Shown here one piece after another: positions 31,482 to 52,499 of a stretch of 64,000 bases of DNA. Origin of the DNA: Candidatus Formimonas warabiya (GTDB lineage Bacteria; Bacillota; Dehalobacteriia; Dehalobacteriales; Dehalobacteriaceae); assembly GCF_002777255.1 (NCBI RefSeq), contig NZ_CP017634.1:5220903-5284902 (forward strand), read 5' to 3'. Within the stretch, counting starts at the first letter, position 1. Every line of letters begins with the position of its first letter. The notes beneath the pieces are model-generated. The model was not told where the DNA came from. It worked only from the letters and a program-made list of their open reading frames with translations, and did no database searches. A program made the translations under genes and the position numbers.

Positions 31482-31582
31482 TTAAAGTAATTAAATCATA
31501 TCAGAATAGTATGCTTAAGTAGGAAATTACTCTGAAATTTGTTCCCATGAAAAAAACTTTTTCAGTTGACCAGAAACACTGG

Positions 31583-31648: not shown

Positions 31649-31664
31649 GGGTCCGATGATAAAA

Positions 31665-31723: not shown

Positions 31724-31758
31724 TTGAACTATAAAAATTTATTTGGAGTGTATATTTT

Positions 31759-34321: not shown

Positions 34322-34777
34322 ATGAAAAGTTCCGGCAGGGTAGATCCGGGAGAATTTGTGATTCCCCTGATCGCCATACTTTATGGGTGCTACAGTATCA
34401 GTTCCCAGGTTGTAAAAGGGTATCAGACCTCCACAATCGGATACGGGCTGGTAATTGCCCTTCCCATGCTGCTTTGTGCAGGAGTCGTTTTATTTAAAGC
34501 GGTGAAAAACCGGAAACAGGAGGTCCGAACAGAAAAGAAACACAGTCTCAGGCCTCTGGGACTGTTAGGCGGCATGATTGTCTTTATTGCCTTGCTTCCC
34601 ATTTTAGGCTATTTTCTAGATATTTTTCTCTATTTAATTATCCTGATGTGGTTCTTTCAGGTCCGGCGCTGGTCAAAGCTTGTGGCTGTTGCTCTCGGCA
34701 CGACCCTGGTGATTCACGTGATCTTTGTCTTGTGGCTCCAATTGCCGCTGCCGCAAGGCTTGATTACGGGCTTGTAA
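34322..34777 (+). CDS. tctB: Tripartite tricarboxylate transporter small subunit TctB
   Basis: 151 residues with four hydrophobic helices, the size and layout of TctB. It lies between tctC and tctA. The helix pair PLGLLGGMIVFIALLPILGYF and LFLYLIILMWFF type is usual for the family. Ends 16 bases before tctA. Confidence 0.85.
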   Translation: MKSSGRVDPGEFVIPLIAILYGCYSISSQVVKGYQTSTIGYGLVIALPMLLCAGVVLFKAVKNRKQEVRTEKKHSLRPLGLLGGMIVFIALLPILGYFLDIFLYLIILMWFFQVRRWSKLVAVALGTTLVIHVIFVLWLQLPLPQGLITGL

Positions 34778-34793: not shown

Positions 34794-36314
34794 ATGGATC
34801 ATCATGCGATTTTTGCGGGACTGGAAATGTTGTTGAGCAATTTGTGGATCGTACCCATCGGTGTTCTGGTGGGCATCATTATTGGGGCCATTCCCGGGCT
34901 AAGCTCCAGCAATTCTTTGGCGATTCTGCTGCCCATGATGCTGGGGCTCCCGGTGGAAACAGCCCTGATCTTTGGAGTATCGTTATACTGCGGGGCGGAA
35001 GTAGGCAATTCCTATCCGGCGATTCTGGTCAATATCCCGGGCACCGGGTCGGCGGCAGTGACAACCTTTGACGGCTATCCGATGGCGCAAAACAAACAGG
35101 CGGCGGAGGCCATGGGTTTGTCCATTTTTTCTTCTTTTATCGGCGGCGTGATCGGCGGGCTGGTCTGCCTTACCTCGGCCCCTTTGATCAGTAAAGTGGC
35201 CCTCAAATTTAGCTCCGTGGAAATGACGATTATTATTCTTTTCGGTGTGGCAGTGCTGGCCCAGTTATCTTCCGGCGGGCTGGCCAAGGGTCTCATGGCG
35301 GGTTTTTTTGGCCTGCTCCTGTCTACCACGGGGGTAGACCCCATCTGGGGGCAAATCCGGGCTACCTTCGGCAGTATGTATCTCATGGACGGCATGCCTG
35401 TGATCCCGGCTTTAATCGGGCTCCTGGCCTTTTCCGAATTACTGATTTCTTTGGAAAAGAATGAGGCTGTTTCCCTGGTGGAAGACTCTCAGAGCTTAGG
35501 CTTAAAGGGAATTTTTCAGGGCTTCCGGTATACGATCAAGAGCTGGGTAAACACCTTGCGCTCATCTTTAATCGGGGTAATTGTGGGTGCGATCCCGGGT
35601 GCCGGGGCTTCTATCGCCAGCTTTATTTCTTACCAGCAGACAGTGGCTTTTGCCCCTTCCGAAGAGAAGAAAACCTTCGGCAAAGGGAATCCGGAGGGGG
35701 TCATTGCTTCCGAAGCCGCCAACAACGGGGTTGTAGGGGGCAGCCTGATCCCTTTGCTTACTCTGGGCGTTCCCGGTAGCGCCAGTATGGCTGTGCTCAT
35801 GGTGGTGATGGCGTACCAGGGCTTGGCCCTGGGACCCCGGCTCTTTGTGCAGAATGGGGATGTAGCCTATGCCGTCTTGTGGTCCCAGTTTGCCGCCGCG
35901 GTTTTCATGCTGGTTATTGGTACGGCCTGCGCCTACAGTTTCTATCGGCTGGCCTATATTCCCATGACCCTGCTGGTTCCGGTGGTCTCGGTGATCTCCA
36001 TTATCGGGGGATATGCGCCCCGCCAGTACATTTTTGATATGGGCTTAGTGATCATTTTCGGCATCCTGGGGTATGTGATGAAGAAATATGAATACCCGCC
36101 CGCCGCCATGCTTTTAGGGCTGATTTTAGGCCCCCTGCTGGAGGCCAATGCCTTCCGGGGCCTGAAAATAGGTTTAGGCTCCCCGAGCATATTTTTTACC
36201 CGGCCCCTGGCTGTTTTGTTATGGATTTTGCTCATTATTACCTTTGTGGGACCGGAAATAAAACGAAAATTGGCCCGGAATAAAGAAGGCAAAAATTCTT
36301 TCCGCATAGATTGA
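34794..36314 (+). CDS. tctA: Tripartite tricarboxylate transporter large subunit TctA (divergent)
   Basis: 506 residues, about eleven helices. The two inverted-repeat signature loops of TctA are visible: GAIPGLSSSNSLAILLP near residue 27 and GAIPGAGASIASFISYQ near residue 265. The first periplasmic loop reads YCGAEVGNSYPAILVNIPGTGSAA, unlike the more usual YGGSITSILLGLPG of the second TctA at 52500, so the two transporters probably take different substrates. Starts ATG 34794 after AGGGGGTG. Confidence 0.9.
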   Translation: MDHHAIFAGLEMLLSNLWIVPIGVLVGIIIGAIPGLSSSNSLAILLPMMLGLPVETALIFGVSLYCGAEVGNSYPAILVNIPGTGSAAVTTFDGYPMAQNKQAAEAMGLSIFSSFIGGVIGGLVCLTSAPLISKVALKFSSVEMTIIILFGVAVLAQLSSGGLAKGLMAGFFGLLLSTTGVDPIWGQIRATFGSMYLMDGMPVIPALIGLLAFSELLISLEKNEAVSLVEDSQSLGLKGIFQGFRYTIKSWVNTLRSSLIGVIVGAIPGAGASIASFISYQQTVAFAPSEEKKTFGKGNPEGVIASEAANNGVVGGSLIPLLTLGVPGSASMAVLMVVMAYQGLALGPRLFVQNGDVAYAVLWSQFAAAVFMLVIGTACAYSFYRLAYIPMTLLVPVVSVISIIGGYAPRQYIFDMGLVIIFGILGYVMKKYEYPPAAMLLGLILGPLLEANAFRGLKIGLGSPSIFFTRPLAVLLWILLIITFVGPEIKRKLARNKEGKNSFRID

Positions 36315-36348: not shown

Positions 36349-36900
36349 TTGAGCTGGAATACGCTGGTAGTTTTTTGCCTGGGTTTTTTAGGGGGCGTGG
36401 CGGGGCAAAAAACCCGCATCCCGGGAGGAGTTCTGATCGGGGCGATGCTCTTTGCGGCATCGGCAAATTTTGTCGGCATGCCGCCTGCATCCCTGCCCCC
36501 CTTTTATAATCTCAGCTTGCAGATCATGGCGGGCTGCCTGGTGGGCATCGGCATTACCACAAAGACCTTAAAAGATTTAAAGAAAATTGTTGCTCCGGTG
36601 CTGCTCAATGCCTTGATTATTTTAACAGGAGGAATAGTGGTAGCCGTTGTGATATCCCATCTGTTTTTCTGGGGCCGGATCACTTCCTGGCTGGCCTCAT
36701 CACCGGGCCGCATGCAGGATATGGTGATTTTTTCCGACAGCCTGGGAGCGGATACCACAAAGGTGGCGGGGGTGCATATTATGCGCACCATTTCCGTGGT
36801 AATACTTACTCCCCTGATTCTAAAAGGACATGACAGGTTACGGAAGCAAAAAAATTTACCGTCACAAAACGATGGGGAAAAGAAAAAAGGAGGACATTAA
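36349..36900 (+). CDS. AbrB-family half-size membrane protein, first copy
   Basis: 183 residues with five or six hydrophobic helices and the AbrB-family marks GGVAGQKTRIPGGVLIGAML and SSPGRMQDMVIFSDSLGAD. Full AbrB proteins are about twice this length and contain two such units; here two half-size genes flank comA (this one and 37719), suggesting a heterodimer. The start is a TTG after CTGGAGG. The 3' end overlaps the ribosome site of comA. Confidence 0.82.
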   Translation: MSWNTLVVFCLGFLGGVAGQKTRIPGGVLIGAMLFAASANFVGMPPASLPPFYNLSLQIMAGCLVGIGITTKTLKDLKKIVAPVLLNALIILTGGIVVAVVISHLFFWGRITSWLASSPGRMQDMVIFSDSLGADTTKVAGVHIMRTISVVILTPLILKGHDRLRKQKNLPSQNDGEKKKGGH

Positions 36901-36901
36901 A

Positions 36902-37714
36902 GTGAAGAGAGCATTAGAGTTTTTGGAAATACCAACCAGGAGTGTAAAACCCCGAAAGCAAGGGCTGACCATTGTGCGGGATCACAATATCGGCTGGAAT
37001 TGTGCCGTGGATATGGTAGATGCGGTAGGCCCGGTGATTGATTATGTGAAAATGCGCCATATTACCGTGTGTGTGGCGCCCCTCGATGAAAACGATTTAA
37101 CGATCAAAAAAATTCAGTTGTATAAAGACAACCAGATGGACGTCTTTCCCGGCGGCATTGTCTTTGAAAACGCCTTTGTTCAAAGGAAGGTGGAACCCAC
37201 TTTTGATACACTGGTAAAAATGGGTTTCACGGCGGTGGAATGTTCGGAAAATATTATTAATATTAATATGGAAGATAAAATTAACTCCGTTAAGACGGCC
37301 AAAAAAGCGGGATTAAAAGTGCTTTTTGAAGTGGGGGAAAAATATCCGGAGGGTCCCCTGGATGTGGATTTGTGTGTAAAAGAATGTCATACTTTGATTG
37401 AGGCGGGGGCGGATCTGGTGATCGTGGAAAAATCCCTCCTGGAAACCAGCCTGGGTACGGCAGGAGAGCATGCCGATGCTTATCGCATTGAAGAACTGGT
37501 CAAAAGAGTCGGGCTGCAGTATCTCACCTTTGAAGCGGAGTCCAAGTTGCACCAGGGCTGGCTGTTTAATACCTTTGGACCTGATGTCAATATTGGCCCC
37601 AATCTGCATCCCGATGAAATTGCCAAGCTGGATGCCACCAGGCTCACCTGGAGCCGTGAGGGGGGCTATACCTGGCTGATTGAGCGGGCAAAAGCAGCGG
37701 GCTGCCTGGCCTAA
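36902..37714 (+). CDS. ComA-family (phosphosulfolactate synthase-like) protein, copy 1
   Basis: 270 residues from GTG 36902; AAAGGAGGACATTAAA precedes the GTG in all three copies, so this start is preferred over the in-frame ATG 36872. The TIM-barrel family marks of ComA are clear: PRKQGLTIVRDHNIG, DYVKMRHIT, VFPGGIVFENAF, GFTAVECSENI, VLFEVGEKYPEGP, EAGADLVIVEKS, TFEAESKLHQ. Known ComA joins sulfite to phosphoenolpyruvate to make phosphosulfolactate for coenzyme M. No comB, comC or comDE is nearby; the neighbours handle tricarboxylates, so the substrate is open. Copy 1 differs from copies 2 and 3 at about 18 residues. Confidence 0.88.
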   Translation: MKRALEFLEIPTRSVKPRKQGLTIVRDHNIGWNCAVDMVDAVGPVIDYVKMRHITVCVAPLDENDLTIKKIQLYKDNQMDVFPGGIVFENAFVQRKVEPTFDTLVKMGFTAVECSENIININMEDKINSVKTAKKAGLKVLFEVGEKYPEGPLDVDLCVKECHTLIEAGADLVIVEKSLLETSLGTAGEHADAYRIEELVKRVGLQYLTFEAESKLHQGWLFNTFGPDVNIGPNLHPDEIAKLDATRLTWSREGGYTWLIERAKAAGCLA

Positions 37715-37718
37715 ACCG

Positions 37719-38231
37719 ATGCGAAAGCCGGACAGGAAGCACATCACATCCTTGGTGTGGGTGGCGGTTCTAGGCATCTTAGGCGGTGGAATGGGGGAGA
37801 TTTCACATGTTCCGGGAGGCATCATCCTGGGCGCCATGCTGACTATCGCGGCGGGAAACCTGTTAGGGTTTCCCGCTAACTGGTTACCGTCCCGGTCCGG
37901 CTTTATCCTTCAGGTCTTAGCAGGGATCATGCTGGGCATCAAAATCACCGGGGAGGAATTGTCTACGCTGGGAGAGATCCTGATTCCGGTGCTGATCATT
38001 ACCGGGGTGCTGAATCTCATGGGCATCCTGTCCTCCCTGTTGGTGTGGAAGGTATTTGACTGGGACCTGCTCACCGCCTGGTTGTCTACTTCTCCGGGAC
38101 GGATGCAGGATATGGTGATCCTGGCCAAGAATCTGGAGGCAGACAGCGAAAAAGTAGTCACCACCCATGTGATGCGGATTACCCTGGTGGTGATAGTGAC
38201 CCCGCTGATCCTTTTATTCTGGGGCAAATAA
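37719..38231 (+). CDS. AbrB-family half-size membrane protein, second copy
   Basis: 170 residues from ATG 37719; an in-frame TTG at 37680 lies inside comA. Hydrophobic helices with GGGMGEISHVPGGIILGAML and STSPGRMQDMVILAKNLEAD mark it as a second AbrB half. It overlaps nothing and ends 36 bases before prpF. A 40-base piece of this gene (GCGGGAAACC...GTTACCGT) recurs at 54907 as a remnant. Confidence 0.8.
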   Translation: MRKPDRKHITSLVWVAVLGILGGGMGEISHVPGGIILGAMLTIAAGNLLGFPANWLPSRSGFILQVLAGIMLGIKITGEELSTLGEILIPVLIITGVLNLMGILSSLLVWKVFDWDLLTAWLSTSPGRMQDMVILAKNLEADSEKVVTTHVMRITLVVIVTPLILLFWGK

Positions 38232-38267
38232 ATGCCCACAACGAATACCAGCAAGGAGGGTTTTAAA

Positions 38268-39464
38268 ATGAGTGATTTGTTTCGTTTTCCTGTAACTATC
38301 TACCGGGGAGGAACCAGTAAAGCCCTGGTTTTTCGTCCGGAAGACCTGCCGGAGGATGCCGATGAAAGGGATAAGGTGATCCTTGCTGCTTACGGCAGCC
38401 CGGATCCTCGGCAGATTGACGGCATGGGGGGCGCGGATTCGCTGACAAGTAAAATGGCCATTATCGGCAAGTCCCGGCGCCCAGATGCCGATGTGGATTA
38501 TACCTTTGGTCAGGTCAGCCTGTTTAACGCCACGGTGGATTATTCAGGGAACTGCGGCAATATCTCTTCCGCAGTGGGTCCCTACGCGGTGGACGAAGGG
38601 CTCATTCCTGCGGTAGAGCCGGTAACAACAGTGCGCATATTTAATACTAATACCAATAAAATCATCGTCGCGGAAGTGCCTGTGGAACAGGGCAAACCAA
38701 AGGTGGACGGGGATTTTGCCATTGACGGGGTGCCGGGCACAGGGGCCAGGATTGTCCTCAATTTTCTGGATTCGGCCGGTTCCGTGACAGGCCGGCTGCT
38801 GCCGACGGGAAATGTGCAGGATGTGATTGAAACCAGCCGGGGAAAATTCACCGTTTCTTTTGTCGATTCCGCCAACCCCGTGGTTTTTGTGGGCGCGGAG
38901 GAATTAGGCCTGCAGGGTACGGAACTGCCCGATGCGGTGAATGCCTATCCCGATTTATCCGAGACTCTGGAAGAAATACGCGCTATTTTCGCGGTAAAAA
39001 TCGGCCGTGTGGACGACTGGAAAAAGGCCCAGGCCGTCAGTCCAGCCATACCGAAGATTTGTTTTGTGGCAAAGGCCCAAACCTATTGTGCTTCCGACGG
39101 GCGCATGATCCAGGAAGATGAAATTGATCTGGTGGGGCGAATGATGTCCATGCAGAAGCCCCATAAGGCTTATGCGGTGACAGGGGCTGTTTGTACAGGA
39201 ACCGCCGCCAAGATTCCCGGCAGTGTGGTTTACAATTTGCTTTCTGCCCAAGCCCAAGAGGGGAACCGGATTCGCATCGGCCACCCCTCCGGCAAGCTGG
39301 AGGTGGAGGTTGATGTGGCCCAGGAAGAAGGCCGCATCATTTTACATAAGGCGGCATTGGCAAGAACAGCACGACGTTTAATGGATGGGCAGGTTTATGT
39401 GTCCCGGGCCAAGGTCGCCTCTACCAAACTGGAAACAGCGCCCCGGAAAAAATCCCCGGAATAA
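38268..39464 (+). CDS. prpF: PrpF-family isomerase (2-methylaconitate/aconitate isomerase-like)
   Basis: 398 residues from ATG 38268, which has AAGGAGG at good spacing; an ATG at 38232 lacks one. It matches the PrpF family of the diaminopimelate-epimerase fold: IYRGGTSKALVF, DPRQIDGMGGADSLTSK, DYSGNCGNISSAVGPYAV with the catalytic cysteine, and KICFVAKAQTY. PrpF proteins move double bonds in (methyl)aconitates, for example trans- to cis-aconitate. In this cluster it would feed aconitase. A broken copy lies at 43690. Confidence 0.9.
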   Translation: MSDLFRFPVTIYRGGTSKALVFRPEDLPEDADERDKVILAAYGSPDPRQIDGMGGADSLTSKMAIIGKSRRPDADVDYTFGQVSLFNATVDYSGNCGNISSAVGPYAVDEGLIPAVEPVTTVRIFNTNTNKIIVAEVPVEQGKPKVDGDFAIDGVPGTGARIVLNFLDSAGSVTGRLLPTGNVQDVIETSRGKFTVSFVDSANPVVFVGAEELGLQGTELPDAVNAYPDLSETLEEIRAIFAVKIGRVDDWKKAQAVSPAIPKICFVAKAQTYCASDGRMIQEDEIDLVGRMMSMQKPHKAYAVTGAVCTGTAAKIPGSVVYNLLSAQAQEGNRIRIGHPSGKLEVEVDVAQEEGRIILHKAALARTARRLMDGQVYVSRAKVASTKLETAPRKKSPE

Positions 39465-39471
39465 GACAAGG

Positions 39472-39936
39472 GAATGGGGCGGAAACCGGCACCACATCTT
39501 CCCTTTTCCCAGCGATGAGGTGACCCGGAAATTTTTACAAGCCAAGGCCGGGAAAATGCCTGGATACCCCTTGACGCGGATGCGGATGCCATATATGATC
39601 AGGAATTAGAAATTAATTTAAGCGCATTGGAACCTCTGGCCGCGTGCCCCCATAGTCCGGATCATGTCAAGACGGTGAAAGAACCGGAACTTTAAAAGGC
39701 GTTCGGGAGCGAAAGACGCTCAGGTTTATCTGGTCAGTTCGGAGACGGCTGCGGCCAGTGCTCTTTCCGGGGTGATCACCGATCCCCGGAGTTTAGGCGA
39801 ACCGGTAGTTATGTCCCTACCGGCGAAATTTGCCATTGATGACAGCATGTTTATTTTCCCGGCCTATGGCCGTCAGGAAGTCCGGCGCGACCCCAACATC
39901 AAGGCCCTGCCCTTGAAGAAGGGAACTGGGATCCTG
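39472..39936 (+). pseudogene. Aconitase remnant with internal deletion
   Basis: This stretch aligns with two separate parts of the intact aconitase gene at 47190: 39472-39695 with about 47825-48046, and 39696-39936 with about 48331-48565. The N-terminal third, the CTNS cysteine region between the two blocks, and the C-terminal domain are missing. Small indels break the frame as well. The sequence after it, AAAAAGTTGCAAACTAAG (from 39942), also matches the acn-icd spacer of copy B at 49135. Confidence 0.92.
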
Positions 39937-39980
39937 TTTCAAAAAAGTTGCAAACTAAGTCAAAGTAAAGGAGGCATACG

Positions 39981-41192
39981 ATGAGGGAAAAAATTTACAT
40001 GAAGACGCCCTTAGTGGAGATGGACGGGGACGAGATGACCAGGATTATCTGGCATTTTATTAAAGAGATCCTGATCGGGCCCTATGTTGATTTAAAAACA
40101 GCCTATTATGACCTGGGCTTGAAACATCGGGACGAAACCAACGACCAGGTGACTATTGACGCGGCAATGGCAACCAAAAAATATGGCGTGGCTGTAAAGT
40201 GCGCGACCATTACACCCAATGCCCAGCGGGTGGAGGAGTATCACTTAAAGCAAATGTGGAAAAGTCCGAACGGCACCATTCGGGCGATTCTGGACGGCAC
40301 CGTTTTCCGTACGCCCATTATTGTCAACAATATCCGGCCTTTTGTGAAATCCTGGGCCAAATCCATTTCCATTGCCCGGCATGCTTACGGGGATATTTAT
40401 AAGAATGTGGAGATGCGCATCCCAGGAGCGGGAAAAGCGGAGCTGGTATTTACCGGGGAGAATGGGGAAGTGGTGCGGGAAACTGTTTTCGATTTTCAGG
40501 GACCCGGGGTGATCATGGGCATGCATAATATCGATAAATCCATTGAAAGTTTCGCCAGGTCCTGTTTCAACTTTGCCCTTGACCAAAAAAAGGATCTTTG
40601 GTTCGGCACTAAGGACACCATCTCCAAGACCTATGACCACCGGTTTAAAGACATCTTCCAGGAGATTTTTGATAAGGAGTATCAAGACAGATTTGCGGCC
40701 AGGAAAATTAGCTATTTCTACACCTTAATCGACGATGTAGTAGCCCGGGTGGTGCGTTCGGAAGGGGGTATGATCTGGGCATGCAAGAACTATGACGGGG
40801 ATGTGATGTCCGATATGCTGGCTTCGGCCTTCGGCAGCCTGGCCATGATGACCTCCGTCCTGGTTTCGCCGGATGGGTACTTTGAATATGAGGCTGCTCA
40901 CGGCACGGTGACCAGGCACTATTACCAGCATTTAGCAGGCAAAGAGACCTCCACCAATTCTATGGCCACTTTGTTTGCCTGGTCGGGCGCCTTGAAGAAG
41001 CGGGGAGAATTAGACGGCATTTCAGCACTTGCCGATTTTGCCGAAAAACTGGAGAAGGCTGCCCTTCAAACCATTGAAGAAGGCGTCATGACCAAAGATT
41101 TGGCCCAGCTGGCAGAGACGGCCGATAAAAAGGTTGTGCATACGGAAGATTTTCTCAGAGAAGTAGACTTGCGTTTGCAGGCCATGCTCTGA
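39981..41192 (+). CDS. icd: NADP-type isocitrate dehydrogenase (eukaryote-like subfamily)
   Basis: 403 residues, matching the homodimeric subfamily found in eukaryotes and some anaerobes: [66 protein letters not shown] and [11 protein letters not shown]. It oxidises isocitrate to 2-oxoglutarate. AAAGGAGGCATACG precedes ATG 39981. The gene sits directly behind the acn remnant, where in copy B acn is intact and icd is a remnant; the two copies would complement each other. Confidence 0.93.
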
Positions 41193-41259
41193 TTCTCCAC
41201 CAGTGACTGCTCCACCCTTTACCGGGACGGAAGCTCATGACAGACGAGGGGGAGGACAT

Positions 41260-42477
41260 ATGGAAGGATACAAACTGCTCATCACACTTTTTCTCATGAT
41301 ACTCCTGATTTGGCGGCACGTCCCGATCAGCTGGGTGATGCTGGGCTGTTCGGCCTTATTGGCGTTCATGTACCATACCGGGTTGATCGCTTTCGGGAAG
41401 ATGCTATGGCGGGGGATGGCCAATCCAGTGACCATTGAACTGGTGATTATTCTGATGGCCATTATGATGCTGGAATTCCTTTTGAGGAAAGAAGGATACC
41501 TGCAGCGCATGCTGGCGGCATTGCAGGCGATCATTCCCAATCCCCGCTTTGTGATGGCCCTATTGCCTTCCTTTATTGGTCTGATGCCCTCCGCAGGAGG
41601 GGCGGTGTTTTCCGCTCCCCTGGTGGAGCATGCGGCCAAAGGTCTTGCCATTTCCCCGGAACAGAAAAGCTTTGTCAACTTCTATTATCGTCATGTGACC
41701 GAGTATTTTCTGCCTATCTACCCCAGCATTCTCTTGATCGCTCAATTGTCCGGGATCCCTGTGCAAAAGCTGATCCTGGCTTTGATTCCCTATGGGGTGC
41801 TGGCCATTTTGCTGGGGATTCCGGTATTGAAAAAAATCCCCCGGGATCGGGCAGACGGAATAGTTCGGGAGGAAAGCTACGAGGGCCCGGAGCGGAAGAA
41901 GATGATCCGGGAGCTGGTCCTTAGTGCGCTGCCCATGCTGGTGGTGGTCTTGATGGTGCTGGCCCTGCAGGCGGAAGTCTGGTTGGCTGTCGGCCTGGTG
42001 ATTCTGTTTCTTTTGATTTACCACCGCTATACGCCGCCAAAATTGCTGGAGCTTTTTCGCGAAATTAAAATTCAGACCATTATTCTGGTCTTTACGGTGA
42101 TGATTTTTAAGCAGGTATTGGAGGATACCGATGCGGTGGCTGGCTTGCCCCTGCTTCTGGAACATCTCCCCGTACCCTCTTATTTTGTTTTTATCGCCAT
42201 TAATTTTCTCGTGGCGGTGATGACCGGTCACATGGTGGCCCTTGTGGGCATAGGGTTTCCCGTTGCCCTGGCGGCGATGGGATCCAGCTTTGACCTTCCT
42301 ACCGCCGTGCTGCTCTTTATTGCCGGTTTTACCGGGCAGATGATCACGCCTGTGCATCTTTGTTTAACCTTGACGGTGAATTTCTTTAAAGCCGATTTAA
42401 ATCAGGTCGTGAAGATGTTGATTGGTCCGGAGGCGGTCTTGCTGGCCTCAGCAATAGCGGCCTACGTCCTGTTTTGA
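41260..42477 (+). CDS. DUF401-family carboxylate-type permease, copy A
   Basis: 405 residues from ATG 41260 (SD GGGGGAGGAC), about ten to twelve helices. Marks: PSFIGLMPSAGGAVFSAPLVEHAA, NFYYRHVTEYFLPIYPS, FTGQMITPVHLCLTLTVNFF. DUF401 proteins resemble the CitM/ion-transporter superfamily. Its position at the end of an aconitate/isocitrate cluster fits di- or tricarboxylate transport. A close paralogue is at 49389. Confidence 0.85.
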   Translation: MEGYKLLITLFLMILLIWRHVPISWVMLGCSALLAFMYHTGLIAFGKMLWRGMANPVTIELVIILMAIMMLEFLLRKEGYLQRMLAALQAIIPNPRFVMALLPSFIGLMPSAGGAVFSAPLVEHAAKGLAISPEQKSFVNFYYRHVTEYFLPIYPSILLIAQLSGIPVQKLILALIPYGVLAILLGIPVLKKIPRDRADGIVREESYEGPERKKMIRELVLSALPMLVVVLMVLALQAEVWLAVGLVILFLLIYHRYTPPKLLELFREIKIQTIILVFTVMIFKQVLEDTDAVAGLPLLLEHLPVPSYFVFIAINFLVAVMTGHMVALVGIGFPVALAAMGSSFDLPTAVLLFIAGFTGQMITPVHLCLTLTVNFFKADLNQVVKMLIGPEAVLLASAIAAYVLF

Positions 42478-42601
42478 GGTCCCTTTTATATTCCGGTTAT
42501 GCGGGGTTAAATCAAGCTCAGTCCGGTTATTAAACAATAAGGCTAAAGAATTGCCCTTAAAAAGCAATAAAAATCTTCTTTAAGTTGACCAGAAACACAG
42601 G

Positions 42602-42665
42602 AGACTAAGTTTTCTTCTTGCATCTTTAAGGATGTGCAAGAGGATTAAGCTTAGTCTTTTTTATT
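42602..42665 (+). terminator. Terminator hairpin in leader copy B
   Basis: AGACTAAG (42602-42609) pairs with CTTAGTCT (42650-42657), with an inner TTGCATC/GATGTGCAA stem and a TTTTTTATT tail. It closes transcription from the DUF401 gene before the copy B promoter. Confidence 0.8.
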
Positions 42666-42684
42666 CTGGATCCGAGTGATAAAA

Positions 42685-42743
42685 AATACCTATTGAGTAT
42701 TCAAAGATTTCGATTTGTCTGACTATAAAAGGGGATCTATACT
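42685..42743 (+). promoter_or_regulatory. Promoter with LysR-type box, copy B
   Basis: AATAC-CTATTGA-GTATT (42685-42701) followed by TTGTCT (42715-42720), 17 bases, TATACT (42738-42743). Conservation of box, spacing and promoter while the prpD gene behind it was lost suggests continued use. Confidence 0.68.
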
Positions 42744-42777
42744 TTAACTATAAAAATTGATCTGGAGTGTATATTTT

Positions 42778-42871
42778 ATGGATTATACAAATGTTGATAG
42801 ATAGGACAAAATACTAAAACAAAAAAATTTGCCATCACAAAACGATGGAGAAAAGAAAAAAGGAGGACATT
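42778..42871 (+). pseudogene. Fused stubs of prpD start and abrB end
   Basis: ATG 42778 opens with codons like those of prpD (M-D-Y-T-N-V, against M-N-D-T-H-V in copy A) but stops at once. From about 42820 (AAAAAAATTTGCCATCACAAAACGATGG) the sequence matches the last bases of abrB copy 1 at 36848-36876. A deletion therefore removed most of prpD, all of tctCBA and nearly all of abrB. Confidence 0.85.
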
Positions 42872-42874
42872 AAA

Positions 42875-43687
42875 GTGAAGAGAGCGTTAAATTTTTTAGA
42901 AATTCCTACCAGGAGTGTGAAACCCCGGAAACAGGGACTAACCATTGTGCGGGATCACAATATCGGCTGGAACTGTGCCGTGGATATGGTGGAGGCGGTG
43001 GGGCCGGTAATCGACTATGTGAAAATGCGCCATATTACCGTATGCGTGGCACCCCTCGATGAAAACGATTTAACGATCAAAAAAATCCGGCTGTATAAAG
43101 AGAACGAGATGGACGTTTTCCCCGGGGGCATTGTTTTTGAAAACGCCTTTGTCCAAAATAAAGTGGAGCCGACTTTTGAAACATTGGTAAAAATGGGGTT
43201 CACGGCGGTGGAGTGCTCGGAAAATATCATCAATATTGATATTGAAGAAAAAATCAATTCCATTAGAATGGCGAAAAAAGCAGGGTTGAAAGTACTTTTT
43301 GAAGTAGGGGAAAAGTATCCCGAAGGCCCCCTGGACGTAGAACTGTGCGTAAAAGAATGCCATACCCTGATTGAGGCGGGGGCGGATCTGGTCATTGTAG
43401 AAAAATCCCTGCTGGAGACCAGTCTGGGTGCAGCAGGAGAGCACAAGGATGCCTATCGTATTGAGGAACTGATCAAAAGAGTGGGATTGCAGTATCTGAC
43501 CTTTGAAGCGGAGTCCAAATTGCACCAGGGATGGTTGTTTAACACCTTTGGACCGGATGTCAATATCGGGCCCAATTTACATCCGGATGATATTGCCAAG
43601 ATGGATGCCACCAGGCTTACCTGGAGCCGTGAGGGGGGCTATACCTGGCTGATTGAGCGGGCAAAAGCAGCGGGCTGCCTGGCTTAA
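42875..43687 (+). CDS. ComA-family protein, copy 2
   Basis: 270 residues from GTG 42875 with the same AAAGGAGGACATTAAA ribosome site as copy 1. All ComA motifs are intact (VFPGGIVFENAF, VLFEVGEKYPEGP, EAGADLVIVEKS, TFEAESKLHQ). It differs from copy 3 at only four residues (N/D, E/K, R/K, E/D) and is the first gene behind the copy B promoter. Retention through heavy decay of its neighbours argues that it is useful. Confidence 0.87.
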   Translation: MKRALNFLEIPTRSVKPRKQGLTIVRDHNIGWNCAVDMVEAVGPVIDYVKMRHITVCVAPLDENDLTIKKIRLYKENEMDVFPGGIVFENAFVQNKVEPTFETLVKMGFTAVECSENIINIDIEEKINSIRMAKKAGLKVLFEVGEKYPEGPLDVELCVKECHTLIEAGADLVIVEKSLLETSLGAAGEHKDAYRIEELIKRVGLQYLTFEAESKLHQGWLFNTFGPDVNIGPNLHPDDIAKMDATRLTWSREGGYTWLIERAKAAGCLA

Positions 43688-43689
43688 AC

Positions 43690-43961
43690 CAGGATGCCGA
43701 TGTGGATTGTACCTTTGGCCAGGTCAGCTTGTTTAACGCACGGTGGACTATTCCGGGAACTGCGGCAATATCTCTTCCGCAGTAGATCCTTATGCGATTG
43801 ACGAAGGACTCATTCCGGCGGTAGAGGGCCGGATTATTTTACATAAGGCAGCATTGGCAAGAACAGCCCGGCGTTTAATGGACGGGCAGGTTTATATGTC
43901 CCGGACCAAGGCTGCCTCCCTAAAACTGGAGACGTCAGCTAAGAAACAATCGGATCAATAG
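43690..43961 (+). pseudogene. prpF remnant with frameshift and internal deletion
   Basis: Aligns with prpF at 38483-38615 and then, after a jump of about 700 bases, with 39333-39464. One base is lost near 43738 (AACGCACGG against AACGCCACGG), breaking the frame, and the N-terminus is missing. The deletion joins GTAGAG to GGCCG. It retains the prpF C-terminus but cannot encode a working enzyme. Confidence 0.92.
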
Positions 43962-43989
43962 AAGAATGCCCTTATGCGTTAAGGATCTG

Positions 43990-44877
43990 TCAAGGACAGC
44001 TTAACTTAGCGATCTTGAGGAAACCTTTTAAAGGACCGGAAAGATGCTTGTTTCTGTTGAAAAAAACGTATGTAGCCCGGGAGAGCCCCGGTGGGTTTGA
44101 TATTTTTATTGCCCGAAGCATGCCGTGATCCAGTTCTTCTTGGATGGCCAGCTGGGGCAATAGGGCAATGCCGAGGGCTTTGGAGACCATTTTTTTGGTC
44201 GCTTCCATGCTATCTAACTTCATGAACACCGTTGGGGTAAATCCAATGGTGCTGAAAGCATTATTAATAAAGCTCCAATAGTCTGAGCCTTTTTGATAGG
44301 AGATTAAGGGATAATTCTCCAGATCCTTCAAATCGACAAAGGGTAAATGAGCAAGAGGATGTTCCGGATATACACAAAGTACAAGGGGATCTTGGGAAAT
44401 TTTAATTGATGTCATTAAGGGATCCGACAAAGGGCTGCGGCTTAGACCAATCTGGGCTTCGTAATTACGAACCATGTTTATGACGTCGGAACTGCGGCCC
44501 ACGTGAACGTTAAGTTCCACATGGGGATAAGCAGATTTGAATGAACATAGGATGTGGGGTAATTGATAACAGCTGATATAATTTGATGCGGCAATCGAGA
44601 TGCTTCCTTTAGCACAGGATGACCATTCATTTAGTGTTTGCCGGGCCTCACGCAGGAGAAAAAGGGTCTTTTCCACATAAGGCAGGAGAAGGTAGCCTTC
44701 TTCAGATAGTGTAACCCCTTTGGGCCCCCTTTCAAAAAGACGTGCGCCCACTTCTGCTTCTAGGTTTTTTATCCGGGCTGACAGGGTAGATTCCGTACAG
44801 TGCAATATTTCCGCGGCGGATGAGAATTTTTTTGCTTTATAGATTTCATAGAAAGAGGCTAAATCTCTCAATTCCAT
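43990..44877 (-). CDS. LysR-type transcriptional regulator, first
   Basis: 295 residues on the minus strand. N-terminal winged helix (MELRDLASFYEIYKAKKFSSAAEILHC in part, TESTLSARIKNLEAEVGARLFERGPKG) and a C-terminal periplasmic-binding-like effector domain (about 90-295). It is divergent from the enolase-superfamily gene at 45117, with a palindrome between them, so it probably controls that gene. Its effector is likely a carboxylate but cannot be read from sequence. It resembles the second LysR at 54992 in the DNA-binding helix. Confidence 0.92.
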   Translation of the reverse strand: MELRDLASFYEIYKAKKFSSAAEILHCTESTLSARIKNLEAEVGARLFERGPKGVTLSEEGYLLLPYVEKTLFLLREARQTLNEWSSCAKGSISIAASNYISCYQLPHILCSFKSAYPHVELNVHVGRSSDVINMVRNYEAQIGLSRSPLSDPLMTSIKISQDPLVLCVYPEHPLAHLPFVDLKDLENYPLISYQKGSDYWSFINNAFSTIGFTPTVFMKLDSMEATKKMVSKALGIALLPQLAIQEELDHGMLRAIKISNPPGLSRATYVFFNRNKHLSGPLKGFLKIAKLSCP

Positions 44878-44947
44878 ATTGTTTACACCTCGTCCAAAGC
44901 TTTGTATTACCCTATTCGGTGTGTTTAAAAAGAACCCTTTTTAGGGC

Positions 44948-44962
44948 TTCGAAATTTTCGAA
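44948..44962. promoter_or_regulatory. LysR-type operator between divergent genes
   Basis: TTCGAAATTTTCGAA is a perfect 7-1-7 palindrome containing the T-N11-A motif of LysR-family sites. It lies 70 bases upstream of the LysR start and 155 bases upstream of the enolase-superfamily start, the usual place for an activation/autorepression site. Confidence 0.68.
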
Positions 44963-45116
44963 CTGCTAGTCTTAATCTTTCAATTAGATTAAAGGGGAAC
45001 GATATTGTATTCTATTACTGGGCCCATTAGTTCAATATTTTCATTAAGGTTAAGCATGCTTAAACTCAAAATCCTCATTTGCTTCAATCAGTTTAAATGA
45101 AAAAGGAGTGCTTAAT

Positions 45117-46241
45117 TTGAAAATTGTAGACGTCAAAACCCAAATGGTTTCTCTTCCCTTGATTTCGCCTTACAGAATTGCCCCCGGAACCTGTAGATAT
45201 GCTACCAGTGTTTTAGTAAAAATAATAACCGATGAAGGCGCCGAAGGTGTTGGGGAAACTGCTGTAACCGTACCTGAAAGAGGCGGCGAAACACAGGAAA
45301 GTATTAAAATCTCTTTGGAAAAATATATTGTACCGCAAATTATCGGCATGGATCCCCGTGATATTGGTTTGGTCATTAAGAAAATTGAAGATTTTCACTG
45401 GGGAAAAACAGGGTTTCTTTGCGCCAAAGCAGGTATTGATAATGCCCTTTATGATCTTGTCGGTAAGTATTATGGTCTGCCCGTCTATCAGTTGTTAGGC
45501 GGGGCACACAGAAAGAGCTTCAGTCTTACAAGAAGCTTAGGAGTTAGGACTCCTGAGGAAATGGCAGAAGAAGCGGTGCAGCTTAAATCCCTGGGATATA
45601 AAATGCTGACCATTAAAGCCGGTTTTGATCCCCAGCAAGACATTGAACGTGTCGCCGCCGTCCGGGACGCAGTCGGTCAGGATTTTCCCCTGGAGGTTGA
45701 TGTAAATGGCGGTTATACAATAGATGTAGCGATTCCTACTTTGCGTAAGATGGTGAAGTATGGCATTGAAAATGTTGAGCAGCCGGTACCCTGGTGGGAT
45801 CTGGAAGGGATGGCCGAAGTAAGAAGATTGGTGGAAATTTCTGTTACGGCTGATGAAAGTGCTTGGACGCCTTATGATGTGATAGAAATCATTAGAAAAA
45901 GAGCAGCAGATAGAATCTGTATCAAACCTATTAAGAGCGGCGGTTTGTATTGCAGCAGCAGGATTGCGGATGTTGCGGAAGCGGGCGGATTGAGATGCGT
46001 AATGGGAAGCAAGCATCCCCTCGGTCCGGGCACTGCTGCCATTCTTCATTTTGCGGCGGCGAAAAGTTGTGTAGACGAAGTTTTGGGATATGGCTCTCCC
46101 CTGGAAAGATTTACAGATGATATCGCTGTTAATCCTGTACAAATTGTGGATGGTATCGTAACCATATCCGACGCTCCCGGTTTGGGGGTTGTTTTAGATG
46201 AAGAAAAACTCAAGCGGTATGATGGGGCACCGAAAGAGTGA
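45117..46241 (+). CDS. Enolase-superfamily (mandelate racemase/muconate lactonizing) enzyme
   Basis: 374 residues from TTG 45117 (SD AAAGGAG; GTG 45108 overlaps the SD). The capping domain is at 1-125 and the barrel follows. Metal ligands are Asp195 (EVDVNGG), Glu221 (VEQPV) and Asp246 (TADES); Lys270 stands as the base on the far side. The usual KxK motif reads T165-I-K167, so one lysine is missing and Lys167 remains. This is the MLE subgroup pattern; reactions include cycloisomerisation, racemisation and dehydration of carboxylates. It and the divergent LysR look inserted between the two halves of copy B. The base composition looks more AT-rich than that of copy A. Confidence 0.87.
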   Translation: MKIVDVKTQMVSLPLISPYRIAPGTCRYATSVLVKIITDEGAEGVGETAVTVPERGGETQESIKISLEKYIVPQIIGMDPRDIGLVIKKIEDFHWGKTGFLCAKAGIDNALYDLVGKYYGLPVYQLLGGAHRKSFSLTRSLGVRTPEEMAEEAVQLKSLGYKMLTIKAGFDPQQDIERVAAVRDAVGQDFPLEVDVNGGYTIDVAIPTLRKMVKYGIENVEQPVPWWDLEGMAEVRRLVEISVTADESAWTPYDVIEIIRKRAADRICIKPIKSGGLYCSSRIADVAEAGGLRCVMGSKHPLGPGTAAILHFAAAKSCVDEVLGYGSPLERFTDDIAVNPVQIVDGIVTISDAPGLGVVLDEEKLKRYDGAPKE

Positions 46242-46312
46242 GGATTGGTAAAGTACGTATCGGAAACGTATGATTGATATTTATGCTATCATTGAAAAAG
46301 GAGGACATTAAA

Positions 46313-47125
46313 GTGAAAAGAGCATTGGATTTTTTAGAAATTCCTACTAGGAGTGTGAAGCCTCGGAAGCAGGGGCTAACCATTGTGCGGGATCACAATA
46401 TCGGCTGGAACTGTGCCGTGGATATGGTGGAGGCGGTGGGGCCGGTAATCGACTATGTGAAAATGCGCCATATTACCGTATGCGTGGCACCCCTCGATGA
46501 AAACGATTTAACGATCAAAAAAATCCGGCTGTATAAAGAGAACGAGATGGACGTTTTTCCCGGGGGCATTGTTTTTGAAAACGCCTTTGTCCAAAATAAA
46601 GTGGAGCCGACTTTTGAAACATTGGTAAAAATGGGGTTCACGGCGGTGGAGTGCTCGGAAAATATCATCAATATTGATATTAAAGAAAAAATCAATTCCA
46701 TTAAGATGGCGAAAAAAGCAGGGTTGAAAGTGCTTTTTGAAGTAGGGGAAAAGTATCCCGAAGGTCCCCTGGACGTAGATCTGTGCGTAAAAGAATGCCA
46801 TACCCTGATTGAGGCGGGGGCGGATCTGGTCATTGTAGAAAAATCCCTGCTGGAGACCAGTTTGGGTGCAGCAGGAGAGCATAAGGATGCCTATCGTATT
46901 GAGGAACTGATCAAAAGAGTGGGATTGCAGTATCTGACCTTTGAAGCGGAGTCCAAATTGCACCAGGGATGGTTGTTTAACACCTTTGGACCGGATGTCA
47001 ATATCGGGCCCAATTTACATCCGGATGATATTGCCAAGATGGATGCCACCAGGCTTACCTGGAGCCGTGAGGGGGGCTATACCTGGCTGATTGAGCGGGC
47101 AAAAGCAGCGGGCTGCCTGGCTTAA
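46313..47125 (+). CDS. ComA-family protein, copy 3
   Basis: 270 residues from GTG 46313 with the conserved AAAGGAGGACATTAAA site. Upstream of that site the sequence differs from copies 1 and 2, which supports the GTG as the true start. Nearly identical to copy 2 at the DNA level over most of its length (four residue differences), pointing to recent duplication or gene conversion. It follows the enolase-superfamily gene by 71 bases and precedes acn by 64 bases, and could be co-transcribed with both. Confidence 0.87.
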   Translation: MKRALDFLEIPTRSVKPRKQGLTIVRDHNIGWNCAVDMVEAVGPVIDYVKMRHITVCVAPLDENDLTIKKIRLYKENEMDVFPGGIVFENAFVQNKVEPTFETLVKMGFTAVECSENIINIDIKEKINSIKMAKKAGLKVLFEVGEKYPEGPLDVDLCVKECHTLIEAGADLVIVEKSLLETSLGAAGEHKDAYRIEELIKRVGLQYLTFEAESKLHQGWLFNTFGPDVNIGPNLHPDDIAKMDATRLTWSREGGYTWLIERAKAAGCLA

Positions 47126-47189: not shown

Positions 47190-49115
47190 GTGGCTTTAAC
47201 AGCAGCACAAAAAATTATTCAAGAACACTTAGTGAGCGGAGAAATGACAGCTGGTAAAGAAATCAGCCTCAAAGTGGATCACACATTAGTCCAGGATGCC
47301 ACAGGGACCATGGCGTTCCTCCAGTTTGAAGCAATGGGCATTTCCCGGGTCAAGACAGAAAAAAGTTTGATCTATGTTGACCACAATACTTTACAGACTG
47401 GGTTCGAAAACCCGGATGACCATATTTTCCTCCAGGATATGGCTTCAAACATTGGGGTGATTTATTCCCGACCGGGAAACGGTATTTGCCACCAGGTAAA
47501 CCTGGAACGTTTTGCTGAACCAGGAAAGATTCTGTTGGGGGCAGATAGCCATACACCTACAGCGGGAGGATTGGGCATGCTGGCGATAGGAGTAGGCGGT
47601 TTGGATGTGGCGGTAGCAATGGGCGGAGGTGATTTTTGTCTCATGATGCCCAAAATAATCAATGTAAAGCTGACCGGCGCATTGGCACCCTGGGCCAGTG
47701 CAAAAGATATTGTCTTGGAAGTGCTCAGAAGACTTTCCGTAAAAGGAGGCCTGAAGACCATTTTAGAATACACCGGTGACGGTATAAAACACCTTACTGT
47801 ACCGGAACGGGCGACCATTACCAATATGGGTGCGGAAACCGGTGCGACCGCTTCCCTATTTCCCAGCGATGAGATTACTCTGGAATTTTTAAAAGCGCAA
47901 GGCCGGGAAGACGTGTGGAGACCTCTGGCGGCGGACAAAAATGCCGTATATGATCAGGAATTGGAAATTAATTTATGTAAATTAGAACCTTTGGCAGCAT
48001 GTCCTCATAGCCCCGACAATGTAAAGCCTGTGAAAGAACTGGAGGGCATGAAAATTAACCAGGTCGTAATCGGCAGCTGTACTAATTCTTCCTATTTGGA
48101 TTTAATGAAAGTGGCTGAGATCTTGAAAGGGAAAAAAGTACACCCTGACGTTAGCCTGGTTCTCGCTTGCGGGTCTAGACAGGTGTTTCAGATGCTGGCG
48201 GATAACGGTAGTCTGGCAGAGATTATCAAATCCGGGGCCCGGGTTTTGGAATGTGCCTGTGGTCCCTGTATCGGTATGGGACAGTCGCCTAAGTCGGCGG
48301 GGATCTCCTTACGTACGATCAACAGAAATTTTAAAGGACGCTCGGGAACGAAAGACGCTCAGGTATATTTAGTCAGTCCGGAAACGGCTGCAGCCAGTGC
48401 TGTTTCAGGGGTCATGACTGATCCGCGGAGTCTAGGCGAGCCGTTTGTTGTGCCCAACCCGGAGAAGTTTTCTATTGATGACAGTATGTTTATTTTCCCG
48501 GCCTATGGCGATAAGGAAATCCGGCGCGGCCCCAACATCAAGGCCCTTCCCTTAAAGTGTGAGCTGGATAGAGATCTTCAGGGGGAAGTGCTGTTGAAAG
48601 TAGGGGATAATATTACCACCGATCATATTATGCCTGCGGGGGCCAAAATCCTCCCCCTGCGGTCCAACATTCCTGCCATGGCGGAATATGTATTTGAACC
48701 CGTTGATCCGGACTTTGCCCGGCGTGCTAAAGAAAAAAGGGGTGGTATCGTCTTGGGCGGTGATAATTATGGTCAAGGATCCAGCCGGGAGCATGCTGCT
48801 TTGGCCCCTATGTATCTTGGCGTAACGGCGGTGATTGCCAAGTCGATTGCCCGGATTCATTACGATAACTTGATCAACTTCGGTATTGTACCTCTTATTT
48901 TCATGGATCCGGCCACGTATGATACCATTGGCCAGGGCGATCGACTGGAGATTTGCGGTATGAAAGAGTCCGTTGAAAGAGGGGATGAAGAGTTAACCGC
49001 CCGGAACTTGACCTCAGGGCAGAAATTCTCCGTGAAGCTTCTGCTTTCCGATCGGCAGCGCCGTGTTCTTTCCGCCGGGGGGACACTAAACTTTATGAAA
49101 GCAGAAAATAGTTAA
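47190..49115 (+). CDS. acn: Aconitate hydratase
   Basis: 641 residues, the shorter aconitase form of many anaerobes. Iron-sulfur ligands are in GSCTNSSYLDLMKVAEIL and CACGPCIGMGQSP; the swivel domain carries DNYGQGSSREHAAL. Substrate motifs DSHTPTAGGLGMLAIGVGG and GRSGTKDAQVYLVSPETAA are intact. It interconverts citrate, cis-aconitate and isocitrate. The start is GTG 47190 after AAAGGAGGGGC. It is the intact counterpart of the wreck at 39472. Confidence 0.95.
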   Translation: MALTAAQKIIQEHLVSGEMTAGKEISLKVDHTLVQDATGTMAFLQFEAMGISRVKTEKSLIYVDHNTLQTGFENPDDHIFLQDMASNIGVIYSRPGNGICHQVNLERFAEPGKILLGADSHTPTAGGLGMLAIGVGGLDVAVAMGGGDFCLMMPKIINVKLTGALAPWASAKDIVLEVLRRLSVKGGLKTILEYTGDGIKHLTVPERATITNMGAETGATASLFPSDEITLEFLKAQGREDVWRPLAADKNAVYDQELEINLCKLEPLAACPHSPDNVKPVKELEGMKINQVVIGSCTNSSYLDLMKVAEILKGKKVHPDVSLVLACGSRQVFQMLADNGSLAEIIKSGARVLECACGPCIGMGQSPKSAGISLRTINRNFKGRSGTKDAQVYLVSPETAAASAVSGVMTDPRSLGEPFVVPNPEKFSIDDSMFIFPAYGDKEIRRGPNIKALPLKCELDRDLQGEVLLKVGDNITTDHIMPAGAKILPLRSNIPAMAEYVFEPVDPDFARRAKEKRGGIVLGGDNYGQGSSREHAALAPMYLGVTAVIAKSIARIHYDNLINFGIVPLIFMDPATYDTIGQGDRLEICGMKESVERGDEELTARNLTSGQKFSVKLLLSDRQRRVLSAGGTLNFMKAENS

Positions 49116-49177: not shown

Positions 49178-49322
49178 ACTGGAGGAGGCTGCCATTCAGA
49201 CCATCGAAGAGGGAGTCATGACGAAAGATTTGGCCCAACTTGCAGAGACCACCGATAAAAAGGTTGTTAATACCCAAGGCTTTCTTAGAGAAATAGACTT
49301 GCGTTTAAAGGGAATGCTGTAG
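49178..49322 (+). pseudogene. Isocitrate dehydrogenase C-terminal remnant
   Basis: From CTGGAGGAGGCTGCCATTCAG the sequence matches the last 48 or so codons of icd (41047-41192) in frame to the TAG at 49320-49322. The preceding bases (49135-49172) match the acn-icd spacer of copy A, so a clean deletion removed about 1.07 kb of icd. No start codon with a ribosome site supports translation. Confidence 0.93.
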
Positions 49323-49388: not shown

Positions 49389-50597
49389 ATGGAAGGATAT
49401 AAACTGCTCATCACACTTTTTCTCATGATATTTCTAATTTGGCGGCATGTTCCGCTAAGCTTCGTAATGATTGGCTGCTCGGCTTTATTGGCCTTCATGT
49501 ACCAGGCCGGTTTAGGCGCTTTTGGGCTGATGCTGTGGAGGGGTGTGATCAACTCTGAAACGATTGAACTGGTGATTATTCTGATACTAATTATGGTCTT
49601 GGAGTCTCTGTTGCGGAAAGAAGGATACCTTAATCGCCTGCTGTCGGGATTGCAGGCGATCGTTCCCAACCCGCGTTTTGTGATGGCCGTATTGCCTTCC
49701 CTGATTGGATTAATGCCCTCGGTAGGGGGAGCAATGTTTTCCGCTCCCCTGGTAGAGCATGCGGCCCAAGGTCTTTCCGCTTCACCGGAGCAGAAAAGCT
49801 TTGTCAATTTTTATTATCGCCATGTGACAGAGTATTTTCTTCCTATCTACCCCAGCCTTTTATTGGTAGCTCAACTGTCCGGAATACCTGTACAGAAGTT
49901 GATTCTGGCCCTCATTCCCTACGGTGTGCTGGCGATTTTGCTGGGGATTCCGGTATTGAAAAAAATTCCTCTGAATCCGGCTGTGGAAGACAGTCCCAAG
50001 TGCCTGGACCGGAAAAAGATTACCAGGGAACTGCTCGTCAGTGCCCTACCCCTGTTAGTGGTCGTGTTTCTGGTGTTGGTAATGCAGGCGGAAGTTTGGC
50101 TGTCTGTTGGCGGCGTGATCGTATTCCTCTTGTTGTATCACCGGTATAAGCCGGCAAAAGTGCTGGACCTGTTTCGTGAGATCAAATTTCCGATCATTAT
50201 GATCGTATTTACTGTGATGATTTTTAAGCAAGTACTGCAGGATACGAATGCAGTTGCCGGGTTACCCCAGATGCTGGATCGATTGCCTGTGCCCTCTTAT
50301 GTTATTTTTATGTCCGTTAATTTTCTCGTGGCAGTCATGACCGGTTACATGGTGGCCGTTGTGGGCATCGGGTTTCCCATTGCCCTCGCCGCCATGGGAT
50401 CAAGTTTTGACCTTTATACAGCGGTGCTCTTGTTTATCGCGGGTTTTACCGGGCAAATGCTTACGCCGATGCACCTGTGCTTAACTTTGACCGTGAATTT
50501 CTTTAAAGCTGATCTTAATCGGGTGGTGAAACTGTTGATAGGTCCGGAAGCAGTGCTCCTGGCGGCAACTTTAACAGCATACTGGATTTTTGCGTGA
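49389..50597 (+). CDS. DUF401-family carboxylate-type permease, copy B
   Basis: 402 residues, paralogous to 41260 with the same signature segments (PSLIGLMPSVGGAMFSAPLVEHAA, NFYYRHVTEYFLPIYPS, FTGQMLTPMHLCLTLTVNFF). The upstream 60 bases, including the ribosome site GGAGGAC, are also shared with copy A. Both copies stayed intact, in contrast to acn and icd. Confidence 0.85.
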   Translation: MEGYKLLITLFLMIFLIWRHVPLSFVMIGCSALLAFMYQAGLGAFGLMLWRGVINSETIELVIILILIMVLESLLRKEGYLNRLLSGLQAIVPNPRFVMAVLPSLIGLMPSVGGAMFSAPLVEHAAQGLSASPEQKSFVNFYYRHVTEYFLPIYPSLLLVAQLSGIPVQKLILALIPYGVLAILLGIPVLKKIPLNPAVEDSPKCLDRKKITRELLVSALPLLVVVFLVLVMQAEVWLSVGGVIVFLLLYHRYKPAKVLDLFREIKFPIIMIVFTVMIFKQVLQDTNAVAGLPQMLDRLPVPSYVIFMSVNFLVAVMTGYMVAVVGIGFPIALAAMGSSFDLYTAVLLFIAGFTGQMLTPMHLCLTLTVNFFKADLNRVVKLLIGPEAVLLAATLTAYWIFA

Positions 50598-51858: not shown

Positions 51859-51904
51859 ACCTTTCATTATAATTGCTTGGAAATCAATAAATTATATTCT
51901 CTGG

Positions 51905-51935
51905 TGGCCGGAGCTGGATCATGCAATTCCGGCCA
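51905..51935 (+). terminator. Stem-loop between tctC2 and tctB2
   Basis: TGGCCGGA (51905-51912) and TCCGGCCA (51928-51935) form a GC-rich 8-bp stem with a 15-base loop and no T-run. It probably protects the tctC message 3' end, giving more binding protein than permease. Confidence 0.5.
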
Positions 51936-52033
51936 TCGGAACAATCTTTGTGAAAATTTAATTTTAGCATGGTTCTAAAAGTACTTATTAGTACAATATC
52001 AGCTACATTTGTTAGAAGGGGAGGTGCATGTAG

Positions 52034-52486: not shown

Positions 52487-52499
52487 GGGGGATATTTTC

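Follow-up and report, generated by a model that had tools for sequence, protein, structure and literature searches.

What are three genes of the phosphosulfolactate synthase (ComA) family doing among genes for tricarboxylate transport and aconitate metabolism? The question is raised by a stretch of 64,000 nucleotides (the window) from Candidatus Formimonas warabiya (assembly GCF_002777255.1, contig NZ_CP017634.1, positions 5,220,903 to 5,284,902). An initial annotation, made from the sequence alone, had described three intact ComA homologues with tricarboxylate and aconitate neighbours and had suggested that the enzyme might act on sulfite and an unsaturated tricarboxylate. The three homologues are indeed intact, as PF02679 (the Pfam ComA domain) is matched full-length in each of them at 172-175 bits against a cutoff of 25.2, and each frame is fully open; only the start given for copy 1 (36902) needs correction, being a GTG inside a longer frame in which alignment with copy 2 favours the ATG at 36872. 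The neighbouring PrpD, PrpF, aconitase, isocitrate dehydrogenase and two TctCBA sets were likewise located as described (Table 1). The suggestion made in that annotation is borne out in part. The three proteins very probably form a separate ComA subfamily with a role in tricarboxylate catabolism. We infer their substrate and a sulfite-releasing step, and this variant of a known enzyme family might open an undescribed desulfonation route.

Divergence of the ComA-like proteins from phosphosulfolactate synthase

The window copies belong to the same family as the ComAs of M. jannaschii (1QWG) and B. subtilis (1U83) over nearly their full length (E 1e-25), but they differ from these in score, residues and neighbourhood. 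Against TIGR03849, the NCBI curated equivalog for phosphosulfolactate synthase, copy 2 reaches 147.7 bits, below the cutoff of 280, while a canonical ComA elsewhere in the same genome scores 294. Residues were compared among 56 ordinary ComAs from a phylum-wide sample, the M. jannaschii ComA, whose numbering is used here, and the divergent proteins. The window copies keep the central residues D20, K43, E79, E103, E133, K137, E168 and E205, among them the Lys137 and Glu cluster of the solved enzymes, and replace T76, G107 (with change at D/G106-107), K136, R170, S172, G173 and P207, which are near-invariant across the 56 ordinary ComAs. The same signature (I76, N107, no R170 or S172, and an acid at 207) is present in proteins from Bradyrhizobium, Paracoccus and Soudan_17, a metagenome-assembled genome (MAG) from the Soudan mine, and these three group with the window copies in one clade (support 97/95). 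All six clade members have lost T76, G107, R170, S172, G173 and P207 and have kept K137, E103, E133, E168 and E205. The R-x-S-G stretch at 170-173, which is conserved in the M. jannaschii ComA and in ComA homologues on Xanthobacter, Nocardioides and Methylocystis plasmids, plausibly holds the phosphate of phosphoenolpyruvate (PEP), and proteins of the clade probably no longer handle PEP. An AlphaFold2 model of copy 2, built from a four-row alignment, had 1QWG as its top Foldseek match, and with a mean pLDDT of 59 it was too poor for pocket analysis.

By these tests, the window proteins would not be phosphosulfolactate synthases. That they join PEP and sulfite in the ordinary way, for coenzyme M or for spore sulfolactate, is highly improbable, even with a Pfam ComA domain above its cutoff and a comB homologue elsewhere in the genome, since the score stays far under the equivalog cutoff, the residues invariant in PEP-type ComAs are lost, and the genome already has a canonical copy. 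The search of the genome, a single contig of 6.44 Mb, revealed five ComA-family genes, two more than the three copies that had been counted, and one comB homologue outside the window. No comB, comC, comDE or fumarate-lyase-type set was found beside the window copies, although comC and comDE were not searched genome-wide. The earlier statement that other coenzyme M genes are missing therefore stands for the surroundings of the window copies and fails for the genome, which has the canonical ComA and the comB homologue. That the annotation placed the enzymes in the breakdown of tricarboxylates, and not in the making of coenzyme M, agrees with the loss of PEP-type residues around a retained Lys/Glu core and with a pairing with PrpD, PrpF and Tct that recurs in other genomes.

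The canonical ComA (locus L006, genome C1:103000-122900, positions 7511-18553 of the locus) is found with a nickel-pincer (LarA-type) isomerase, an HPrK-like P-loop protein, pyruvate kinase and two Tct sets. The trio of LarA-like, HPrK-like and ComA genes is repeated in a distant Bacillota genome (L102, 9722-12959), and could, from its gene content, comprise a sulfolactate racemase, a sulfolactate kinase and a ComA reversed to yield PEP and sulfite.

Tricarboxylate partners in this genome and elsewhere

The link of the ComA-like enzymes to tricarboxylate catabolism is well supported. The window unit has PrpF, aconitase and isocitrate dehydrogenase, the combination taken as the mark of tricarballylate or aconitate catabolism. 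Its PrpD is closest, among solved structures, to the B. subtilis IRG1 homologue, cis-aconitate decarboxylase and iminodisuccinate epimerase, and is remote from 2-methylcitrate dehydratase, whose model it matches at only about 55 bits (cutoff 950).

An internal comparison is offered by a second operon of the genome (L097, genome C1:2213000-2232000), which encodes a DASS carrier, PrpF, a fumarate-reductase-like flavoprotein with iron-sulfur and cytochrome-type membrane subunits, aconitase, isocitrate dehydrogenase, a 2-oxoacid oxidoreductase and DUF401. From its genes, this operon looks like one for tricarballylate/aconitate oxidation or aconitate reduction. Because its PrpF, aconitase, isocitrate dehydrogenase and DUF401 are homologous to those of the window (72-81% DNA identity, and 82-84% protein identity for the three enzymes), the two clusters share a route from aconitate to 2-oxoglutarate. 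The source of aconitate would differ between them, being the redox complex in L097 and the ComA-like protein with PrpD in the window. The remaining L097 genes are the fumarate-reductase-like complex and the 2-oxoacid oxidoreductase, and therefore the ComA module would replace the aconitate-making step. The comparison is the strongest indirect argument that the product of the ComA-like enzyme would be aconitate or a close relative. Known operons for tricarballylate oxidation to aconitate use TcuA, which accompanies the clade member in Bradyrhizobium and Paracoccus; in contrast, the annotated window cluster has no dehydrogenase making aconitate from tricarballylate, and the place of the aconitate-forming step would be taken by PrpD and the ComA-like protein. 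A further unit with PrpF and aconitase (L099, genome C1:4953000-4972000) is accompanied by molybdopterin hydroxylases and probably serves catabolism of a different compound.

The initial annotation had named a lack of co-occurrence outside this strain as one ground for refuting its idea, and PrpD, PrpF and Tct do accompany the ComA clade in both Bradyrhizobium and Paracoccus. In Bradyrhizobium guangxiense, as on six near-identical plasmids, the gene for the ComA relative either overlaps prpF or directly adjoins it. The annotated region has the order PrpD-PrpF-ComA with TctC; across insertion sequence (IS) elements it also includes TcuA, a YeiH-family exporter and an ABC importer, and genes for a CoA-transferase and a CoA-ester lyase are present as well. 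The Paracoccus versutus gene for ComA overlaps the one for TcuA, and close to them are PrpD, PrpF, a full-length protein of the AbrB type and two TctCBA sets. The two ComA-like proteins are 54% identical, and the pairing therefore does not reflect one recent transfer. In Soudan_17, the relative is found with a homocitrate-synthase-like gene, an acyl-CoA synthetase and TctCBA. A second divergent ComA type, in this genome (L007) and in another Bacillota genome (L074), occurs with aconitase and TctCBA at both loci.

As a control, 58 loci were scanned with flanks of at most 1.5 kb, and tricarboxylate partners appeared only at one (L045), itself of the second divergent type. They were absent from the other 57 (the Soudan locus plus 56 ordinary ComAs), although the short flanks make this a limited control. 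A single contig scan for clade members returned the Soudan MAG only, and scans of the class of this genome and the classes of two other carriers yielded no further member. Literature searches found nothing on a pairing of ComA with aconitate, tricarballylate, itaconate or PrpF. As well, a haloarchaeal ComA relative on a Halorussus aquaticus plasmid (L108, 2373-6831) has an MmgE/PrpD gene 2.3 kb away; its branch is long and joins the second divergent type.

A possible sulfite-releasing step and its alternatives

The ComA reaction is the addition of a nucleophile at the beta carbon of an alkene carboxylate; run backwards, it removes a proton from beside the carboxylate and releases the nucleophile. 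SuyAB sulfolactate sulfo-lyase and other desulfonating lyases likewise eliminate sulfite from a carboxylate and feed sulfite respiration; the logic proposed here is the same, while protein family and substrate differ. We tentatively propose, at somewhat below an even chance, that the ComA-like enzyme is a lyase that forms aconitate from a substituted tricarballylate by beta-elimination, most probably of sulfite, which Dsr would respire. TctCBA, whose genes are present, would bring in the substituted tricarballylate, and the PrpD-family protein might epimerise it, as its relatives do with methylsuccinate and iminodisuccinate. The conserved Lys/Glu set would then take the proton next to a carboxylate and expel the substituent, most likely sulfite, to leave aconitate, which PrpF may turn to the cis form for conversion to 2-oxoglutarate by the well-identified aconitase and isocitrate dehydrogenase. 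Finally, the sulfite could be respired by Dsr, for which the genes are observed. Loss of R-x-S-G around a kept core would be explained because cis-aconitate and itaconate are analogues of PEP with CH2COO- replacing the phosphate. The window PrpD belongs with the IRG1-type and iminodisuccinate-epimerase members of an MmgE/PrpD family that also holds cis-aconitate decarboxylase and methylsuccinate isomerase. For enzymes of this family, iminodisuccinate epimerase and methylsuccinate isomerase among them, a reaction of substituted succinates through enolates has been proposed (PMC12290011), and an epimerase acting on a substituted tricarballylate would fit that chemistry.

The means to use sulfite are encoded nearby. 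The gene dsrA (574.5 bits, cutoff 392.85) lies about 10 kb left of the window and about 47 kb from the ComA-like genes, with dsrB, dsrC and dsr electron-transfer genes beside it, and the complete-looking dsr operon (L083) enters the left edge of the window (564-2500). No match to AprA above cutoff was found in the genome. DsrA is above cutoff in both other Bacillota genomes with divergent ComA types and not in G149, which has an ordinary-type ComA. A YeiH-family gene is present beside dsr in this genome and again in the Bradyrhizobium region, and YeiH confers sulfite resistance in Salmonella (PMC12880088).

An established ComA adds sulfite, and the ComA-like enzyme might run in that direction on aconitate or itaconate, for sulfite detoxification or sulfonate synthesis, sulfite being an intermediate in an organism with Dsr. 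However, the importers, aconitase and isocitrate dehydrogenase fit consumption of the acid, and no product-specific exporter is evident, making this direction quite improbable. A five-carbon substrate is improbable too, though less so: 2-(sulfomethyl)succinate would be split to itaconate and sulfite, and itaconate handled by PrpF and PrpD. For this speak the closeness of PrpF to 3-methylitaconate isomerase and of PrpD to the IRG1/cis-aconitate decarboxylase group, the terminal CH2 that makes itaconate the closest PEP analogue, and the CoA-transferase and CoA-ester-lyase genes in Bradyrhizobium; the aconitase and isocitrate dehydrogenase of the window and the tricarballylate dehydrogenase of other carriers, in contrast, indicate six-carbon acids.

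A weightier alternative, although still unlikely, is a lyase that acts in tricarboxylate catabolism but expels something other than sulfite. It might break a C-C bond and so replace methylisocitrate lyase in a pathway with PrpD, PrpF and aconitase, or it might split a substituted tricarballylate at a C-N or thioether bond. The gene order PrpD-PrpF-ComA in Bradyrhizobium resembles a methylcitrate-type pathway with the barrel lyase swapped, and the low-confidence model also resembles the barrels of oxaloacetate decarboxylase and sialic acid lyase. Moreover, iminodisuccinate epimerase, which works on C-N chemistry, belongs to the PrpD family, and aerobic hosts have no need of sulfite. Above all, the alphaproteobacterial carriers are not known to us as sulfite respirers. 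On the other side, we know of no C-C or C-N activity in the ComA family, all Bacillota carriers of divergent types encode Dsr, and the Bradyrhizobium region includes the YeiH-family gene.

Several points weigh against release of sulfite from a sulfonated tricarboxylate. To our knowledge, no sulfonated tricarboxylate is a natural metabolite, and literature searches revealed none. Neither Bradyrhizobium nor Paracoccus is known to us as a sulfite reducer; the YeiH gene of Bradyrhizobium is 17 kb from ComA with IS elements between them, and the Paracoccus stretch has no obvious sulfite gene. The Soudan_17 relative is accompanied by a homocitrate-synthase-like gene and Tct, without aconitase or PrpF. 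The occurrence of DsrA in three of three Bacillota with divergent types is a weak argument, as the base rate of dsrA in the phylum may be high, and the lost residues are phosphate binders only by inference. The sulfite-lyase proposal draws on sequence and gene context rather than biochemistry. In addition, in published trials of 'Candidatus Formimonas warabiya' DCMF that included sulfite as electron acceptor, growth was reported only on methanol, choline and glycine betaine (PMC8163858).

Extended to the whole subfamily, the proposal is that these ComAs turned sulfite-lyase: sulfite adducts of aconitate, as unrecognised environmental sulfonates, would be imported by TctCBA, desulfonated to aconitate and burned via isocitrate, while anaerobes would respire the sulfite through Dsr and aerobes would export it. 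This wider scheme is rather doubtful, if possible. If true, it would add a new desulfonating enzyme family and a new class of sulfonate substrates to the sulfur cycle, and would supply sulfite to an organism that has DsrAB and no AprA. Should the leaving group be something other than sulfite, a different substrate would still have to be assigned to a defined ComA subfamily that now bears the phosphosulfolactate synthase annotation in different phyla.

Layout and duplication of the cluster

Self-comparison revealed that the cluster expanded through segment duplication, with segments of the prpD leader, prpF, aconitase, icd and DUF401 repeated (Table 1). The three ComA-like proteins are mutually 93-98% identical; at the DNA level copy 1 is 87% identical to each of the other two. 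Between copies, the ratio of nonsynonymous to synonymous substitution (dN/dS) lies at 0.05-0.08, and dS is about 0.7 when copy 1 is compared with copies 2 and 3. From these values, all three proteins appear to have been preserved by strong purifying selection, whereas adjacent duplicates of prpF, aconitase and icd decayed. Chance annotation of the three copies was rejected on the Pfam scores and dN/dS.

Table 1. Features of the ComA-tricarboxylate cluster, in window coordinates
Feature	Position	Strand	Remarks
prpD operon 5' leader	31551..31758	+	90%-identical repeat at 42569-42795 upstream of ComA copy 2 (self-BLAST, sequence); holds hairpin then T run
MmgE/PrpD-family protein	31759..33135	+	
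TctC, periplasmic binding protein	33216..34253	+	54% identical to TctC of L007 ComA-aconitase cluster
TctB	34322..34777	+	
TctA	34794..36314	+	62% identical to TctA of L007 cluster
AbrB-family (PF05145) membrane protein 1, half-length	36349..36900	+	
ComA-like copy 1	36830..37714	+	probable start 36872
AbrB-family membrane protein 2, half-length	37680..38231	+	
PrpF-family isomerase	38232..39464	+	nearest solved relative 3-methylitaconate isomerase; 82% identical to L097 PrpF
Aconitase gene remnant	39474..39918	+	decayed, between prpF and icd
NADP-dependent isocitrate dehydrogenase	39981..41192	+	674 bits, cutoff 335
DUF401 membrane carrier, copy 1	41203..42477	+	
ComA-like copy 2	42845..43687	+	
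prpF remnant	43689..43918	+	decayed
LysR regulator	43990..44877	-	divergent from MLE-ComA3-aconitase unit
Enolase-superfamily (MR/MLE) enzyme	45108..46241	+	
ComA-like copy 3	46274..47125	+	97.8% DNA identity to copy 2
Aconitase (PRK07229 type)	47190..49115	+	944 bits, cutoff 612
Remnant of icd 3' end	49178..49320	+	
DUF401 membrane carrier, copy 2	49389..50597	+	
Second TctC-TctB-TctA set	50833..54008	+	

The hairpin and T run of the duplicated leader are found at 31570-31650, about 110 bases before prpD, and at 42590-42670, farther upstream of ComA copy 2. They make a candidate terminator or attenuator; an RNA leader was considered, and an Rfam scan of the duplicated leader gave no match.

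Two features of the window are unrelated to the ComA-like genes. An mttB frame (11162-12646) ends at a TAG where Rfam places a PYLIS_3 element, and this coincidence marks it as a pyrrolysine-type trimethylamine methyltransferase. As well, a cas6 gene, followed by repeats of the CRISPR-DR2 type, is present at 60620-61567.

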